DNA of 51,158 bases, taken from NCBI GenBank assembly GCA_021778335.1, contig JAJYCN010000003.1, positions 1 through 51,158 of the forward strand. Reading direction: 5' to 3'. The number at the start of each line of letters is the position of its first letter. The stretch's first letter is position 1. This document shows, in pieces, positions 9,044 through 41,712 of the stretch. The notes below the pieces were generated by a model. The model was not told the origin of the DNA, searched no databases, and was given only the letters and a program-made list of their open reading frames with translations. Both the position numbers and the translations under genes were made by a program. This DNA is from Acidobacteriota bacterium. GTDB lineage: Bacteria; Acidobacteriota; Terriglobia; Bryobacterales; Bryobacteraceae.

Positions 9044-9676
9044 ATGCCGTTCCTGACACCGCAACCTTTTCCGGACGACCGGGTTGATACAGATATGACG
9101 GCTGCCGCCGCCTGTATCGAGCGCGATGCCGACCTGATGCTCCGGGTCCGCGAAGGCGACGATGTCAGTTTCGCCCTCCTCCTCGAAAAGCACCGCCGCC
9201 CGGTCATCCACTTCCTCTACCGCATGGTGCAGAACCAGGCCGTCAGCGAAGAATTGGCGCAGGAAGTGTTTCTCCGCGTTTACAAGGCCCGCCTCAGCTA
9301 CGAACCAACGGCGAAATTCACCACCTGGCTGTTCCGCATCGCCAGCCACCTCGCGATCAACTGGCTGCGCGACCGCCGCAACGAGCGCTCGCAGGACAGC
9401 CTGGATCAACCCAACGCGGACGGCACGCACGTCCAGGTCGCCGATACATCGCTCACCCGCGAAGAGGAAATGATCCGCCAGACCCGCCTGGCCGAGGTAC
9501 GGCGCGCCATCGAAGCGCTTCCGCCGAAACAGCGCGCCGCCGTGATGATGCACAAGTATCGGGAAATGGGATACGCTCAGATCGCCAAGGCGCTGAACTG
9601 CTCCGAATCGGCGGTAAAATCTTTGTTGTTCCGGGCCTACGAGACGCTTCGCGCCCGGCTGGCGCACATGGTATGA
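9044..9676 (+). CDS. RNA polymerase sigma factor, ECF type (module 1)
   Basis: The 210-residue ECF sigma factor has region 2 (VIHFLYRMVQNQAVSEELAQEVFLRVYKAR ... FTTWLFRIASHLAINWLRD) and region 4 (ALPPKQRAAVMMHKYREMGYAQIAKALNCSESAVKSLLFRA, a helix-turn-helix that reads the -35). The start could be ATG 9044 or ATG 9095 (MTAAAACIERD). Its stop overlaps the ATG of the next gene, a zinc-finger anti-sigma (ATGA), a standard sigma/anti-sigma pair. The target promoters are unknown. Confidence 0.92.
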   Translation: MPFLTPQPFPDDRVDTDMTAAAACIERDADLMLRVREGDDVSFALLLEKHRRPVIHFLYRMVQNQAVSEELAQEVFLRVYKARLSYEPTAKFTTWLFRIASHLAINWLRDRRNERSQDSLDQPNADGTHVQVADTSLTREEEMIRQTRLAEVRRAIEALPPKQRAAVMMHKYREMGYAQIAKALNCSESAVKSLLFRAYETLRARLAHMV

Positions 9677-10206
9677 AGGAGACGCCCAAAATGGAAACCC
9701 CGATGTCCTGTCCGGCGAAAGACCGCCGCGGCTCGGAACTGTTCCTCTCCTATGCCGCCGGGCTCATGAGCGCCTCGGAGCACGCCGCCTTCGAGCGCCA
9801 CCTCGCCGCTTGCACCGATTGCTGGCGTATCGCCGCCGAACAGAAGCGCGTCTGGTCCGCCCTCGACGTGCTGGCCGCGCCGGAGATTCCCACGAATTTC
9901 GACGAAAGGCTCTACGCCCGGATCGCCGCCGAGGAACGCAGTCCCTGGTGGCAGTCTTTGCTGCACCACGGCGCCTCCTTCCGCCTGAGCACCGCCGCTC
10001 CCGTGGCCGCCGCCTGCGCTGCCCTCGCCGTGATGCTCATTATGCGGACGCCGCACCCGGCTCCGGCCCCGGTGCAGCCCGCCCCGGCCACCGCCACCGT
10101 CAACCAGAAGCTCGACCCCAGCCAGATCGAGCAGAACCTCGACGACCTCGACATGCTGCGTCAATTGACGGCGCCCGCGACGGAGGCGAGCAACGGGCAG
10201 TCCTGA
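9673..10206 (+). CDS. Membrane anti-sigma factor with ZAS zinc finger
   Basis: The 177-residue protein has an N-terminal zf-HC2 domain with the HxxxCxxC motif (FERHLAACTDCWRIAAEQ, residues about 38-55) that binds the sigma factor. A single membrane helix lies near residues 109-123 (APVAAACAALAVMLIM), followed by a Pro/Ala-rich linker and a short periplasmic tail with DPSQIEQNLDDLDMLRQL. It starts inside the sigma-factor stop codon (4-nt overlap), so the two are made together. It should hold the ECF factor at the membrane until a signal arrives. Confidence 0.88.
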   Translation: MKETPKMETPMSCPAKDRRGSELFLSYAAGLMSASEHAAFERHLAACTDCWRIAAEQKRVWSALDVLAAPEIPTNFDERLYARIAAEERSPWWQSLLHHGASFRLSTAAPVAAACAALAVMLIMRTPHPAPAPVQPAPATATVNQKLDPSQIEQNLDDLDMLRQLTAPATEASNGQS

Positions 10207-10225
10207 GCTTGAGAAAGGAGAACCG

Positions 10226-10765
10226 GTGCGAGTAGTCTCATGGGCCGCGGCGGTTCTCGCAGTTGTGCTCTTACCGGCCCCCAGCCTGGCGTGGGGCCGC
10301 CACAACCAGCCCCCACCTGCCGAGCGTGGGCCGCGCGGACCACGCAACAGTCCACTTCGCCAGCAACTCGGCCCCGCCCCGCTCGAACAACTCCGCCGCA
10401 TGTCCCCCGAGGAACGCCAGCGGTTCCTCAACAGCCTGCCGCAGCGGCAGCGCGCCAACATCGAGCGCCGCCTGAACAACTACGAAAACCTCCCGCCGAA
10501 GGAACAGCAACGGCTGCAGCGAACCTACGATCGCTTCCGGCAATTGCCCCCCGAACAGCAGAACGCCATCCGCCAGGGCTTCCACGGTTTCGCCCAGCTA
10601 CCTCCGGACCGCCGCCAGGCGCTACGCGAGGAGATGCGCAATCTCCGCTCGATGACGCCCGCGGACCGCCGCAAGCGCATCTCAAGCCGCGAATTTCAAA
10701 ACCAGTACACCCCCGAGGAGCGGCAGATCATGAATCAGATGACCCAGCTCGGTCCGAATCGCTAA
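10226..10765 (+). CDS. DUF3106-type exported protein with repeated LPPEQQ motifs
   Basis: The 179-residue product has a signal peptide (MRVVSWAAAVLAVVLLPAPSLAWG) and then a run of short helical repeats: MSPEERQRFLNSLP, LPPKEQQRLQRTY, LPPEQQNAIRQGF, LPPDRRQALREEM, MTPADRRKRI and YTPEERQIMNQM. This is the DUF3106 pattern and resembles the LTxxQ motifs of Spy/CpxP periplasmic proteins. AAAGGAG sits 7 nt before the GTG start. It follows the sigma/anti-sigma pair in the same operon, so it is probably a periplasmic partner or target of that signalling module. The role is inferred. Confidence 0.8.
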   Translation: MRVVSWAAAVLAVVLLPAPSLAWGRHNQPPPAERGPRGPRNSPLRQQLGPAPLEQLRRMSPEERQRFLNSLPQRQRANIERRLNNYENLPPKEQQRLQRTYDRFRQLPPEQQNAIRQGFHGFAQLPPDRRQALREEMRNLRSMTPADRRKRISSREFQNQYTPEERQIMNQMTQLGPNR

Positions 10766-38419: not shown

Positions 38420-38618
38420 GGGTAAGCTGGTCCGGCCCGCGCCGGGGCAAGCGCGGACACCAATTGTGGCCGCCTGCCATGGCGGTCTCCTGGGGGCAGC
38501 GAAACCGATTTAGCGCGGACTCTGGTGGCGGCCGTCAAACCTTAGTAACCTGATGTTTGGCCGGTACGCCATAGCAAATGGAAGTAAAATTCATCGGTGC
38601 GCCGGTTTAGTTGGCTGA

Positions 38619-39194
38619 ATGCTGATTGACTTCAGTCTGATTCAGCGGGCGCAGGCGGGTGATGATGCGGCATTTAATCAAATCGTCGCTGCGTACCGGA
38701 AACGAATCCTCGGCACCATCGGCCGCCTCATCGGGCGGCCCGAGGATGTGGAAGACGTCGCGCAGGAGGCGTTTCTACGGCTATACTTTTCCCTGGATCA
38801 ACTGCGCACCCCGGACGTATTCGAACCATGGCTCTATCGCTTGACCGTCAACGCGTCCTACGATTACCTGCGGCGCCAGCGCAGACGCCGCGAATCGCGC
38901 ATGGCCGACCTGTCCGAACAGCAGGTCCTCATGGCCGACGCAGCCGCCAGCGGTTCCCAGAACATCGAGGACAACCGCAGAGCGCAGGCCCGGGAACTGG
39001 CCGTTTCGCTCCTTGCCGCCGTCTCGGAGCAGGACCGGATTTTGCTAACGTTGAAAGAAGTCGAAGGTTTGTCGCTAAAAGAGCTAAGCGTCATCTATCG
39101 CGTCTCCGAAGGGGTCATCAAAGTTCGCCTCTTCCGGGCGCGGCAACGAGTCCTCAAGGCCTACGAAGCCCGGCAGCCGCCGGAAACTACGTAG
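38619..39194 (+). CDS. RNA polymerase sigma factor, ECF type (module 2)
   Basis: The 191-residue ECF sigma has region 2 (IGRPEDVEDVAQEAFLRLYFSLDQLRTPDVFEPWLYRLTVNASYDYLRRQRRRRESR) and region 4 (EQDRILLTLKEVEGLSLKELSVIYRVSEGVIKVRLFRARQRVLKAYE). Two small membrane proteins follow (111 and 128 residues). Unlike module 1, the anti-sigma candidate has no zinc finger. ATG 38619 is the family start. The layout resembles CnrH-CnrY-CnrX type metal-response systems. Confidence 0.92.
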   Translation: MLIDFSLIQRAQAGDDAAFNQIVAAYRKRILGTIGRLIGRPEDVEDVAQEAFLRLYFSLDQLRTPDVFEPWLYRLTVNASYDYLRRQRRRRESRMADLSEQQVLMADAAASGSQNIEDNRRAQARELAVSLLAAVSEQDRILLTLKEVEGLSLKELSVIYRVSEGVIKVRLFRARQRVLKAYEARQPPETT

Positions 39195-39256
39195 GAGGCA
39201 GCGTACCTCGATATGAGTACGCTATGCTGTGGTGCAAATAGGGAAGTCAGGATCGT

Positions 39257-39592
39257 ATGAGCCGATCGGATGAGCATTTGAATGATGTATTCGCCCGTTA
39301 CCGCGAGGCGTTGCCGGATCCGGAACCAAGCCCGGAGTTCATGCCGGAGCTTTGGCGCAAAATCGACTTGCGCCGATGCACCCGCTTCCAGCTCCTCCAC
39401 CTGAGCCGCATCTTCTTGAGCGGCGCCGCCGCCTTGTGGCTGCTTATGGTGGCCGTGCTGTTCCTGCCCGGCAACAACGTCCAGCCCAAACATCACTCCT
39501 ACGTCGACGCGCTCGCCGCCAGCAATGAGTCCAACTCCTGGGCCTACGCCGGAGTGCTCCATACCGAGATGGAAGAAGCGAACTCTCGATGA
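39257..39592 (+). CDS. Single-pass membrane protein, probable anti-sigma factor
   Basis: The 111-residue protein has a cytoplasmic N-terminus of about 50 residues (HLNDVFARYREALPDPEPSPEFMPELWRKIDLRR), one membrane helix (FLSGAAALWLLMVAVLFLPG) and a short periplasmic tail. The size and topology match a short anti-sigma factor that would hold the preceding ECF factor. No Cys/His motif is present. Its stop overlaps the next ATG (ATGA), so it is coupled to the Spy-like gene. Anti-sigma function is inferred from position. Confidence 0.68.
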   Translation: MSRSDEHLNDVFARYREALPDPEPSPEFMPELWRKIDLRRCTRFQLLHLSRIFLSGAAALWLLMVAVLFLPGNNVQPKHHSYVDALAASNESNSWAYAGVLHTEMEEANSR

Positions 39593-39975
39593 AGCGCTGG
39601 CAGCTACCGGTCGGGTTCTACCTCACGCTCGTCTTCCTAAGCGGCGTCCTCGTGGGGGCGTTCGGTCTCCGTTTGTATATGGTGAGGTCGGTGAGCGCCT
39701 CGGTCATCTACCGCCCGCCTACGGCGGACGAATACCGCCGCCAGATGCTCAACGATATGCAGAAAAAGGTCAACCTCACCCCGGACCAGGTGAACAAGAT
39801 CAACGCCGTGCTCGATAACACTCGGGTCTGCTTCCGCCGTATCCACAGCAAGATCCAACCCGAACTCGATGAGCTGAAAAAACAGCAGTCCGGCGACATC
39901 CGCGCCCTGCTCAACCCCCAGCAACAGGTCAAATACGACCAGTGGCGCGCCGATCGCGACCGCGCCGGGCACTGA
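39589..39975 (+). CDS. Spy/CnrX-like periplasmic sensor protein, membrane-anchored
   Basis: The 128-residue protein has an N-terminal membrane helix (FYLTLVFLSGVLVGAFGL) and a periplasmic helical domain: PPTADEYRRQMLNDMQKKVNLTPDQVNKINAVLDNTRVCFRRIHSKIQPELDELKKQQSGDIRALLNPQQQVKYDQWRAD. LTPDQ and LNPQQQ match the LTxxQ pattern of Spy/CpxP and heavy-metal-resistance (CnrX/NccX) proteins. It is the third gene of the ECF module and may sense metal or envelope stress and release the anti-sigma. A Cys and a His lie in the putative ligand loop. Confidence 0.78.
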   Translation: MKRWQLPVGFYLTLVFLSGVLVGAFGLRLYMVRSVSASVIYRPPTADEYRRQMLNDMQKKVNLTPDQVNKINAVLDNTRVCFRRIHSKIQPELDELKKQQSGDIRALLNPQQQVKYDQWRADRDRAGH

Positions 39976-40878: not shown

Positions 40879-41712
40879 ATGACAACCCCGTTCGCGGCCG
40901 GCCTCCAGAAAACGCTCGTTCCACCCGTCGCCTACTCCTCCGATGCACTCGAAGCGCGCGGGCACACCATCCCCCTCGACGGAGTCGGCGGCGACCTGGT
41001 GGACATCGTCGTCAATGGCTCGAACGCGGTCATTTACGTAGCCGATGTCTCCGGCCACGGCCTCCGCGCCGGAGTCCTTATGGGCATGATCAAGTCCGCT
41101 ACCCGTTTTGGACTCCTTCTCGAACAGCCGTTACCGAAACTCCTCGAAGCAGTCAACGCCATACTGCCGGCGCTCAAGGAACCGTCCATGTACGCCACCC
41201 TGGGCGCCCTGGCGTTCGATGGCTCCAACTTCGCCGAATACATCTCGGCCGGCCATCCCCCGCTGCTCCACTACCGCCGCCGCACCGGAGACGTCATTCG
41301 CCACTCGATCAGCCAGTTCCCGCTCGGCCTTTTTCCGAACACGGTCTATCGCAGCCGGCGCTTCCGTTACGACCCCGGAGACGTATTCGCCGTCATCACC
41401 GACGGCATGGTCGAAACCGGCGAGGATCCCGACCCGGACCTTGCCCTCGATCGCCTTGGCCGAACGCTGCGCGACCACTGCAACGCACCGCTCGAAGAGA
41501 TCCTCGACACCGCCTTCGCCCAGACCACCGTCGACGGTGCGCCGCGCGACGACCGCTCCCTGCTTCTGGTCCGCATGGCCGCCTCGCACGCCACATCCTG
41601 CCAACCACCATTGCCGCTGCAAGCTCAGGAGGAACGCTGGCGTCGTTTCCTCGACGAACTGGAGGACGAGCTCGCCCGCGAATCCGCCCCACATGCCTCC
41701 CTCGCCGATTGA
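40879..41712 (+). CDS. SpoIIE-type PP2C serine phosphatase
   Basis: The 277-residue phosphatase has metal-site motifs DGVGGDLVDIV, YVADVSGHGLRAGVLMGMIKSATR, YISAGHPPLLHYRRRTGD, FAVITDGMVETGEDPD and RDDRSLLLVRM, so all PP2C Asp residues look present. It starts 6 bp after the SRPBCC stop and overlaps arsR by 20 bp. SpoIIE-like enzymes usually act on anti-sigma antagonists (partner-switching). No anti-sigma antagonist is nearby. It is the unusual member of this operon. Confidence 0.92.
   Translation: MTTPFAAGLQKTLVPPVAYSSDALEARGHTIPLDGVGGDLVDIVVNGSNAVIYVADVSGHGLRAGVLMGMIKSATRFGLLLEQPLPKLLEAVNAILPALKEPSMYATLGALAFDGSNFAEYISAGHPPLLHYRRRTGDVIRHSISQFPLGLFPNTVYRSRRFRYDPGDVFAVITDGMVETGEDPDPDLALDRLGRTLRDHCNAPLEEILDTAFAQTTVDGAPRDDRSLLLVRMAASHATSCQPPLPLQAQEERWRRFLDELEDELARESAPHASLAD

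Follow-up and report, generated by a model that had tools for sequence, protein, structure and literature searches.

The window analysed here is a 51,158-nucleotide stretch of an Acidobacteriota genome of the family Bryobacteraceae (GenBank assembly GCA_021778335.1, contig JAJYCN010000003.1). The original prediction described three genes at 38619-39975, encoding a sigma factor, a 111-residue single-pass protein and a membrane-anchored LTPDQ/LNPQQ helical protein, and all three were found at exactly these coordinates on the forward strand. The features of the locus are as follows.

38545-38570, forward strand: ECF-type promoter element, with the -35 block GTAACCT at 38545-38551, a 15-base spacer and the -10 block CGCC at 38567-38570
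38619-39194, forward strand: ECF sigma factor gene, ATG at 38619, 191 amino acids, sigma2 and sigma4 domains only (Pfam)
39257-39592, forward strand: putative minimal anti-sigma gene, ATG at 39257, 111 amino acids, single transmembrane segment (assigned by position, size and topology)
39589-39592, forward strand: ATGA start-stop overlap of the anti-sigma and third genes, consistent with translational coupling (read in the sequence)
39589-39975, forward strand: gene for a membrane-anchored, putatively periplasmic helical protein of the Spy/CnrX superfamily, ATG at 39589, 128 amino acids

The promoter element ends 48 bp before the sigma ATG, and 62 bp separate the sigma and anti-sigma genes in the window. 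The start-stop coupling proposed for the last two genes is directly legible as the ATGA overlap. Both sigma domains scored above their Pfam cut-offs (PF04542, 59.6 bits against 24; PF08281, 35.3 bits against 25.7), and this two-domain composition makes the protein a member of the ECF sigma factors. Its relatives of solved structure include E. coli sigma-E (2.1e-27), the sigma-H of 6in7 (7.8e-26) and CnrH (7.2e-12), the last sharing 30% identity with it.

We compared the trio with relatives named as Bryobacterales, Bryobacteraceae, Solibacteraceae, Sulfopaludibacter, Terriglobia or Acidobacteria. All 30 named relatives carry the three genes on one strand, with the sigma gene of one of them (L063) cut by a contig end. 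A further 69 loci came from matches to either the second or the third protein, a set that includes the window's own place and repeats of the same genomes. The order sigma, anti-sigma, third protein was found in 66 of them; the other three, two of which are one place, are cut by contig ends. Because the arrangement is kept in 30 of 30 named relatives and 66 of 69 other loci, chance is ruled out and the trio is a real unit. Once repeats were removed, and with the window and named loci included, 75 distinct trios remained. In every one the third gene starts between -14 and +10 bases from the anti-sigma stop, most often at -4 (47 trios) or -1 (15 trios).

To gauge how widely the trio occurs, we drew 250 genomes from the order, a group that we infer to be Bryobacterales. 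Matches to the sigma were found in 249 genomes (E ≤ 1e-20), to the anti-sigma profile in 237 and to the third-protein profile in 249 (both E ≤ 0.001), tallies that overstate the range because paralogues count. Stricter counts from the best E-values gave 231 genomes for the sigma (≤ 1e-66), 232 for the anti-sigma (< 1e-6) and 228 for the third protein (< 1e-22), and the sigmas outside the 231 match at 1.2e-46 or weaker or are absent. At least two of the missing trios reflect contig breaks: in G043 and G060, the end of a contig holds the promoter together with the beginning of the sigma gene. Across the phylum, the anti-sigma profile matched at least 9 of 396 genomes; three of these matches belong to the family (E ≤ 1e-27), and the remaining six are weak and partial, at 4.9e-5 or worse, in a search that may miss distant forms. 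The trio's type of anti-sigma therefore looks restricted to the order.

The third-protein profile matched 188 of the 396 genomes across the phylum. Among the best 17 loci outside the order (L168-L184), 12 have an ECF sigma gene upstream on the same strand. The protein in between contains a zinc motif in L169, L177 and L184 and lacks one in L172, L173, L176 and L178. Because the intervening protein is varied outside the order, the layout of sigma, anti-sigma and Spy-like protein looks wider than the trio's own anti-sigma type. Such pairs of ECF sigma and membrane-anchored Spy-like genes on one strand outside the order suggest that the layout may be general in Acidobacteriota.

Reading the DNA upstream of sigma starts brought out a two-block element with the core GTAACCT-N15/16-CGCC. 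It stands before the sigma gene in all 30 sequences with upstream DNA, a count that is description rather than test because the motif was discovered in that set. The scan behind this count used GTAACC placed 15-18 bases before CGCC and returned seven other matches in 367,647 bp on both strands. Among further loci with enough upstream DNA, 58 of 63 have the exact core motif, and the other five amount to four distinct places, all with variants. Within the window's own family, five additional loci have the motif 46, 51, 47, 56 and 106 bases from the sigma start. The core also recurs at four of five loci in two other families of the order. At the four loci of one family (L148, L150-L152) both blocks are kept with a different spacer, 51, 75, 51 and 50 bases from the sigma start, and the single locus of the other (L149) has a variant element. 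Variant first blocks (GTAAACT, GTAATCT and GTAACTT) occur at L011 (the same place as L048), L024, L028 and L149, with CACC as the second block in L028, and these variants might tell which promoter bases matter.

We then considered where else the element occurs. Its strict form had 67 matches in 65 of 160 genomes, against seven for the reversed pattern. When contig, strand and distance were checked against trio places and contig-end cases were read individually, 64 of the 67 preceded a trio sigma gene. The three elsewhere (G014:C184, G061:C135 and G009:C132) do not exceed what the reversed control yields. Given that 64 of 67 strict matches lie before the trio sigma, it is very probable, as judged from these sequence matches, that the switch turns on its own expression and that targets of equal quality are few. 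The strict form was empty in 95 of the 160 genomes, so the sigma may have weaker or variant targets beyond its own promoter.

A wider regulon was sought with a loose pattern (GTAACCTN{15,16}CGCC), which matched 406 times in 61 genomes while its reversed control matched 593 times; falling below the control genome-wide, it shows no regulon. In the window's own genome there were 12 loose sites against 5 in the control, and the trio site alone satisfies the strict pattern. An identical GTAACCTGTAACGAGATTCTGACGCC site lies about 100 bases from the start of two contigs of one genome (G004:C2:102 and G004:C16:101), perhaps a repeat at assembly breaks. Promoters of the E. coli sigma-E type (GAAC/GAAT..TC) were also looked for upstream of the sigma and gave scattered matches only; the conserved element differs from them.

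ECF promoters typically have AAC in the first block, with the second block some 17 bases further along. This two-block shape, which the GTAACCT/CGCC element has, speaks against its being the site of another sigma factor or regulator while the trio's sigma acts elsewhere. An operator might also keep a similar spacer, as the element does within the family, and no other strong site was found in the genomes scanned. In the other family sampled, however, both blocks stay and the spacer differs, and self-control is a hallmark of ECF sigmas according to the available portion of a recent report (PMC12153292). We regard a site for another regulator as very unlikely, and a promoter used by the trio's own sigma as the better account.

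The 111-residue protein is a putative anti-sigma by position, size and topology. It has about 50 cytosolic residues, one hydrophobic stretch around residues 51-70 and a short periplasmic tail. The two predicted cytosolic helices have the motifs LxxLFxxYRxACP and FMPxLWxKIExR, and the tail has a conserved SYVEAL helix. Across 31 members, four cytosolic residues (Y15, F28, W33 and I36) and one residue of the tail (L86) are invariant, and Y82 is nearly so. None of the 31 has the HxxxCxxC motif, placing the protein outside the class I zinc-binding anti-sigmas (ZAS). The window's protein matched no Pfam or NCBIfam family, with scattered weak matches among the 31 members, and a PDB search with it gave no match. 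AlphaFold2 (AF2) predicted helices at 2-18, 28-69 (continuing into the membrane) and 82-94, with low confidence (mean pLDDT 67).

CnrY, as described in the accessible parts of two papers (PMC7406223, PMC4598750), is a class II anti-sigma whose two helices embrace sigma4 and sigma2. The size and helix count of the modelled 111-residue protein would suit CnrY-like clamping. By hhalign, its whole profile matched CnrY at 7.0% with a score above 100 of 100 shuffles; the cytosolic part alone reached 0.8%, a score equalled by 2 of 100 shuffles. Because the cytosolic part alone failed to beat the shuffles, we do not claim homology to CnrY.

The third protein consists of a hydrophobic stretch at about residues 6-32 followed by three predicted helices, with LTPDQ at 63-67 and LNPQQ at 108-112. 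AF2 placed the helices at 46-61, 65-107 and 110-126, with block-mean pLDDT of 92-95 for residues 51-120. The conserved residues F16, G19, G23, Q67, L108 and Q112 fall in the membrane helix and the LTxxQ/LxxxQ turns, and the GxxxG formed by G19 and G23 in the membrane stretch is invariant. The window's protein scored 13.2 bits against the curated 24.3-bit cut-off of PF07813 (LTXXQ) and thus falls outside that family as defined. At E ≤ 0.1, 20 of 30 members including the window match PF07813 and 6 match PF13801, and 9 and 6 of 31 members match the NCBI Spy and CpxP models.

Profile comparisons point to a remote relationship with both CnrX and Spy. A PDB profile search listed Spy first, at a weak E of 0.039, and did not list CnrX. 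By hhalign, the third protein matched CnrX at 65.6% (score 33.7), a score reached by none of 100 shuffles (11.8 ± 2.1, maximum 17.6) and compared with 11.9 for the reversed profile. It matched Spy/CpxP/ZraP at 67.6% (score 34.6; maximum 21.0 in 100 shuffles, 13.4 reversed). CnrX and Spy profiles match each other at 74.3%, so the three are about equally distant. Comparing predicted folds with CnrX and Spy, the check proposed with the original prediction, gave no informative match. Foldseek returned nothing significant for the models of the 111- and 128-residue proteins, and no match to CnrX or Spy. A second look with VIA-align yielded 21 weak arrangements, the best at Z 5.2 to a viral polymerase, which we took as uninformative. 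The Foldseek blank excludes nothing, because the models consist of one membrane helix and long helices.

Kinship with CnrX raises the question of metal sensing, and the original prediction had left the circuit as one for metal or envelope stress. The metal ligands of CnrX, which we take to be H42, H46, E63, H119 and M123, are invariant in seven CnrX relatives. In the hhalign alignment these positions fall on L54, Q58, L75, Q100 and I104 of the third protein, and the CnrX residue occurs at the five columns in 0, 1, 0, 1 and 0 of 31 members. Neither His nor Cys reaches 10 of the 31 at any column of the periplasmic part. Columns 57, 93 and 119 are often methionine (22, 17 and 19 of 31), so the protein may have a methionine-based metal site.

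We next considered the surroundings of the trio. In the window it is adjoined by a convergent bL31 gene, and the other neighbour is a UvrD/PcrA helicase gene; among the 66 loci that extend 1 kb or more downstream, 44 contain a bL31 gene at some position. We compared 30 flanks (the window and 29 loci) using open reading frames of at least 100 amino acids, and the trio genes were the only ones to recur in all of them. An MFS transporter, assigned by Pfam, was the next recurring sense family, found in 9 of 30 and the only other one in more than a few flanks. Identification of this downstream gene as rho was ruled out by the Pfam assignment. No recurring metal resistance gene was seen in the 30 flanks, where the MFS transporter is assigned by family only.

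These observations displace metal sensing as the best reading, with the CnrX ligand positions lost and no metal gene recurring nearby. A true metal sensor that uses other residues and releases the sigma for metal resistance would draw on the CnrX-superfamily relation, on a three-part logic equal to that of CnrYXH, and on the copper response of a similar operon, SigAb, in the available text of its report (PMC12153292). Set against the ligand columns, the bL31 and helicase neighbours and a flank family limited to an MFS transporter, we consider such a sensor quite unlikely. Of the two options first offered, envelope stress is thus the better half. The CnrYXH layout appears separable from metal sensing.

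We consider an envelope-stress switch with Spy-like feedback the most likely reading of the trio. In its full form, the sigma would transcribe its own operon from GTAACCT-N15-CGCC, as the motif suggests. The 111-residue protein would hold the sigma at the membrane, its two short cytosolic helices gripping sigma4 and sigma2 as those of CnrY do, a step suggested by its size, predicted helices and conserved positions. On the periplasmic side, the 128-residue protein would bind the juxtamembrane SYVEAL helix of the anti-sigma and stabilise the inhibited state. Unfolded or damaged periplasmic protein, a signal guessed from the superfamily, might then draw the third protein away, and the anti-sigma would release the sigma, either through a change of shape or through proteolysis. 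Expression of the operon, and with it a new supply of anti-sigma and Spy-like protein, would continue until the stress is relieved. Taken whole, from genes and promoter through clamp and Spy-like stabiliser to release, this explanation seems to us on balance probable. The analysis itself shows the genes and their conservation, the promoter motif, the remote kinship with CnrX and Spy and the loss of the CnrX ligands; the binding steps, signal and release step are ones that we infer.

If the three proteins form a chain across the membrane, their contacting parts might diverge together. We compared distances of protein parts among the 75 trios, using partial correlations that hold the other parts constant. 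The cytosolic part of the anti-sigma tracks the sigma (partial r 0.26, 0 of 2000 permutations) and not the periplasmic domain of the third protein (0.01). The anti-sigma tail tracks that periplasmic domain (0.26, 0 of 2000 permutations; 0.16 after thinning to 66 trios) and, to a lesser degree, the sigma (0.14, 0 of 2000), with -0.01 for the third protein's membrane helix. For the anti-sigma membrane helix the values differ little: 0.14 with the membrane helix of the third protein, 0.14 with that protein's periplasmic domain and 0.10 with the sigma. The first contrasts, for the cytosolic part and the tail, are supportive, though not proof, of a chain from sigma through anti-sigma to third protein.

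Co-divergence also bears on whether the role of the third protein is purely that of an effector, with a Spy-like chaperone produced as the response and the anti-sigma alone sensing and releasing. Spy itself is a stress-induced chaperone, and the operon position makes the third protein a likely target of the sigma. Against this reading stand its tracking of the anti-sigma tail, its membrane stretch with an invariant GxxxG, and the overlap of its gene with the anti-sigma gene in most trios, which suggests matched amounts. We judge an effector-only role unlikely and retain the switch in which the third protein stabilises the inhibited state. A broader proposal can be built on that switch, namely a closed homeostatic loop core to the order. 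The sigma's only strong promoter would be its own, its real output would be the anti-sigma and the membrane-tethered Spy-like protein, the third protein would act as sensor, brake and remedy, and the layout, with exchangeable anti-sigmas, would be general in Acidobacteriota. We offer this extension as speculation, and as a whole it is unlikely.

With 28 matches to sigma-70 region 2 in its 5.5 Mb, the genome contains many sigma modules, the trio among them. Module 1 of the window (9044-10765), to which the original prediction had drawn a parallel, is also a set of sigma, anti-sigma and helical protein. It encodes an ECF sigma, a zf-HC2 anti-sigma overlapping the sigma by 4 bases, and a 179-residue DUF3106 protein with a GTG start and a sub-threshold match to Metal_resist. 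The claim that the two anti-sigmas are unrelated was supported, module 1's being of the zf-HC2 type and the 31 trio members lacking HxxxCxxC. A SpoIIE-type phosphatase gene (PF07228, window 40879-41712) lies a little downstream of the trio and is another possible regulator.

A second trio in the same genome (L002, G000:C223 7283-10615) consists of an ECF sigma, a 155-residue protein that matches zf-HC2 below threshold and a 124-residue LTPDQ protein. Next to it lies a CofH/MqnC-type radical-SAM gene. A second match like this one is present in many genomes of the family. The LTPDQ paralogue is 31% identical to the window's third protein and passes the PF13801 and PF07813 cut-offs. Its Pfam family is named 'Heavy-metal resistance', yet the trio's third protein is without the CnrX ligands, and the family name is for that reason not to be read as function.

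Among known systems, CnrY-CnrX-CnrH of Cupriavidus metallidurans (pMOL28, NC_007972.2) was the one to which the trio had been likened. Both combine a sigma, a minimal single-pass anti-sigma, putative in the trio, and a membrane-anchored periplasmic helical protein in a three-part operon. The resemblance stands for the layout, the short candidate anti-sigma and a remote CnrX/Spy kinship, the last weak at 65.6% by hhalign and without Foldseek support. It fails for gene order, sigma, ligands and, in the cytosolic part, CnrY sequence. In seven CnrYXH reference loci the order is Y-X-H, followed by RND/TolC or copper oxidase genes; in the trio the order is sigma, anti-sigma, third protein, with bL31 downstream. 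The sigma thus comes last and leads into efflux genes in CnrYXH, whereas it comes first in the trio, with no metal gene seen in the compared flanks. Among solved structures, E. coli sigma-E is a closer relative of the trio sigma than CnrH is, the cytosolic part of the trio's anti-sigma has no detectable relation to CnrY, and the CnrX metal ligands are not kept.

The LTXXQ-family proteins Spy, CpxP and ZraP share LTxxQ-type motifs and a helical periplasmic domain with the third protein, and their profile similarity to it is as strong as that of CnrX. They are soluble proteins and, at the E. coli loci, are not encoded with a sigma. The third protein, in contrast, is encoded with one, has a membrane stretch and sits under the Pfam LTXXQ cut-off. 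RpoE-RseA-RseB of E. coli has the sigma closest to the trio's among solved structures and shares its logic of sigma, transmembrane anti-sigma and periplasmic modulator. RseB, however, is not known to be a Spy-like protein. RseA is 217 residues long (PMC12153292) and has a class I domain (PMC8103513), according to the portions of these papers available.

The available parts of two further papers concern similar gene sets. An Azospirillum operon encodes RpoE8, a hypothetical protein and a 'periplasmic heavy metal sensor' (PMC12826043). The Solibacter genome paper reports many sigma-E homologues and, in the part available, names neither Spy nor heavy metal (PMC3174227).

By layout and description, in the accessible text of its report, SigAb-AabA-AabB of Acinetobacter baumannii is the nearest known working analogue of the trio. 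AabA is a 107-residue transmembrane anti-sigma predicted to bind like CnrY, AabB is predicted to be periplasmic, and both act as anti-sigmas; SigAb is self-regulated, has three direct targets and responds to copper (PMC12153292, mBio 2025). The same text supports a common gene order, a short transmembrane anti-sigma (107 against 111 residues) followed by a periplasmic third protein, overlapping genes for these two, and self-regulation, which is probable for the trio. SigAb's small direct regulon is likewise matched by few strong sites for the trio. The systems differ in that sigAb and aabA overlap too, where the trio has a 62-bp gap, and in that SigAb belongs to another phylum and is copper-responsive. 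With the SigAb and Azospirillum operons on record, this kind of system is already known. In the literature searched, as titles, abstract openings and some passages, we found no description of the trio in Bryobacterales, nor of its order-wide presence, promoter, unnamed anti-sigma family or missing ligands. Beside its known counterparts, a regulator present through most of an abundant soil order thereby gains an explicit promoter, an anti-sigma family without a database name, and a testable three-protein mechanism.
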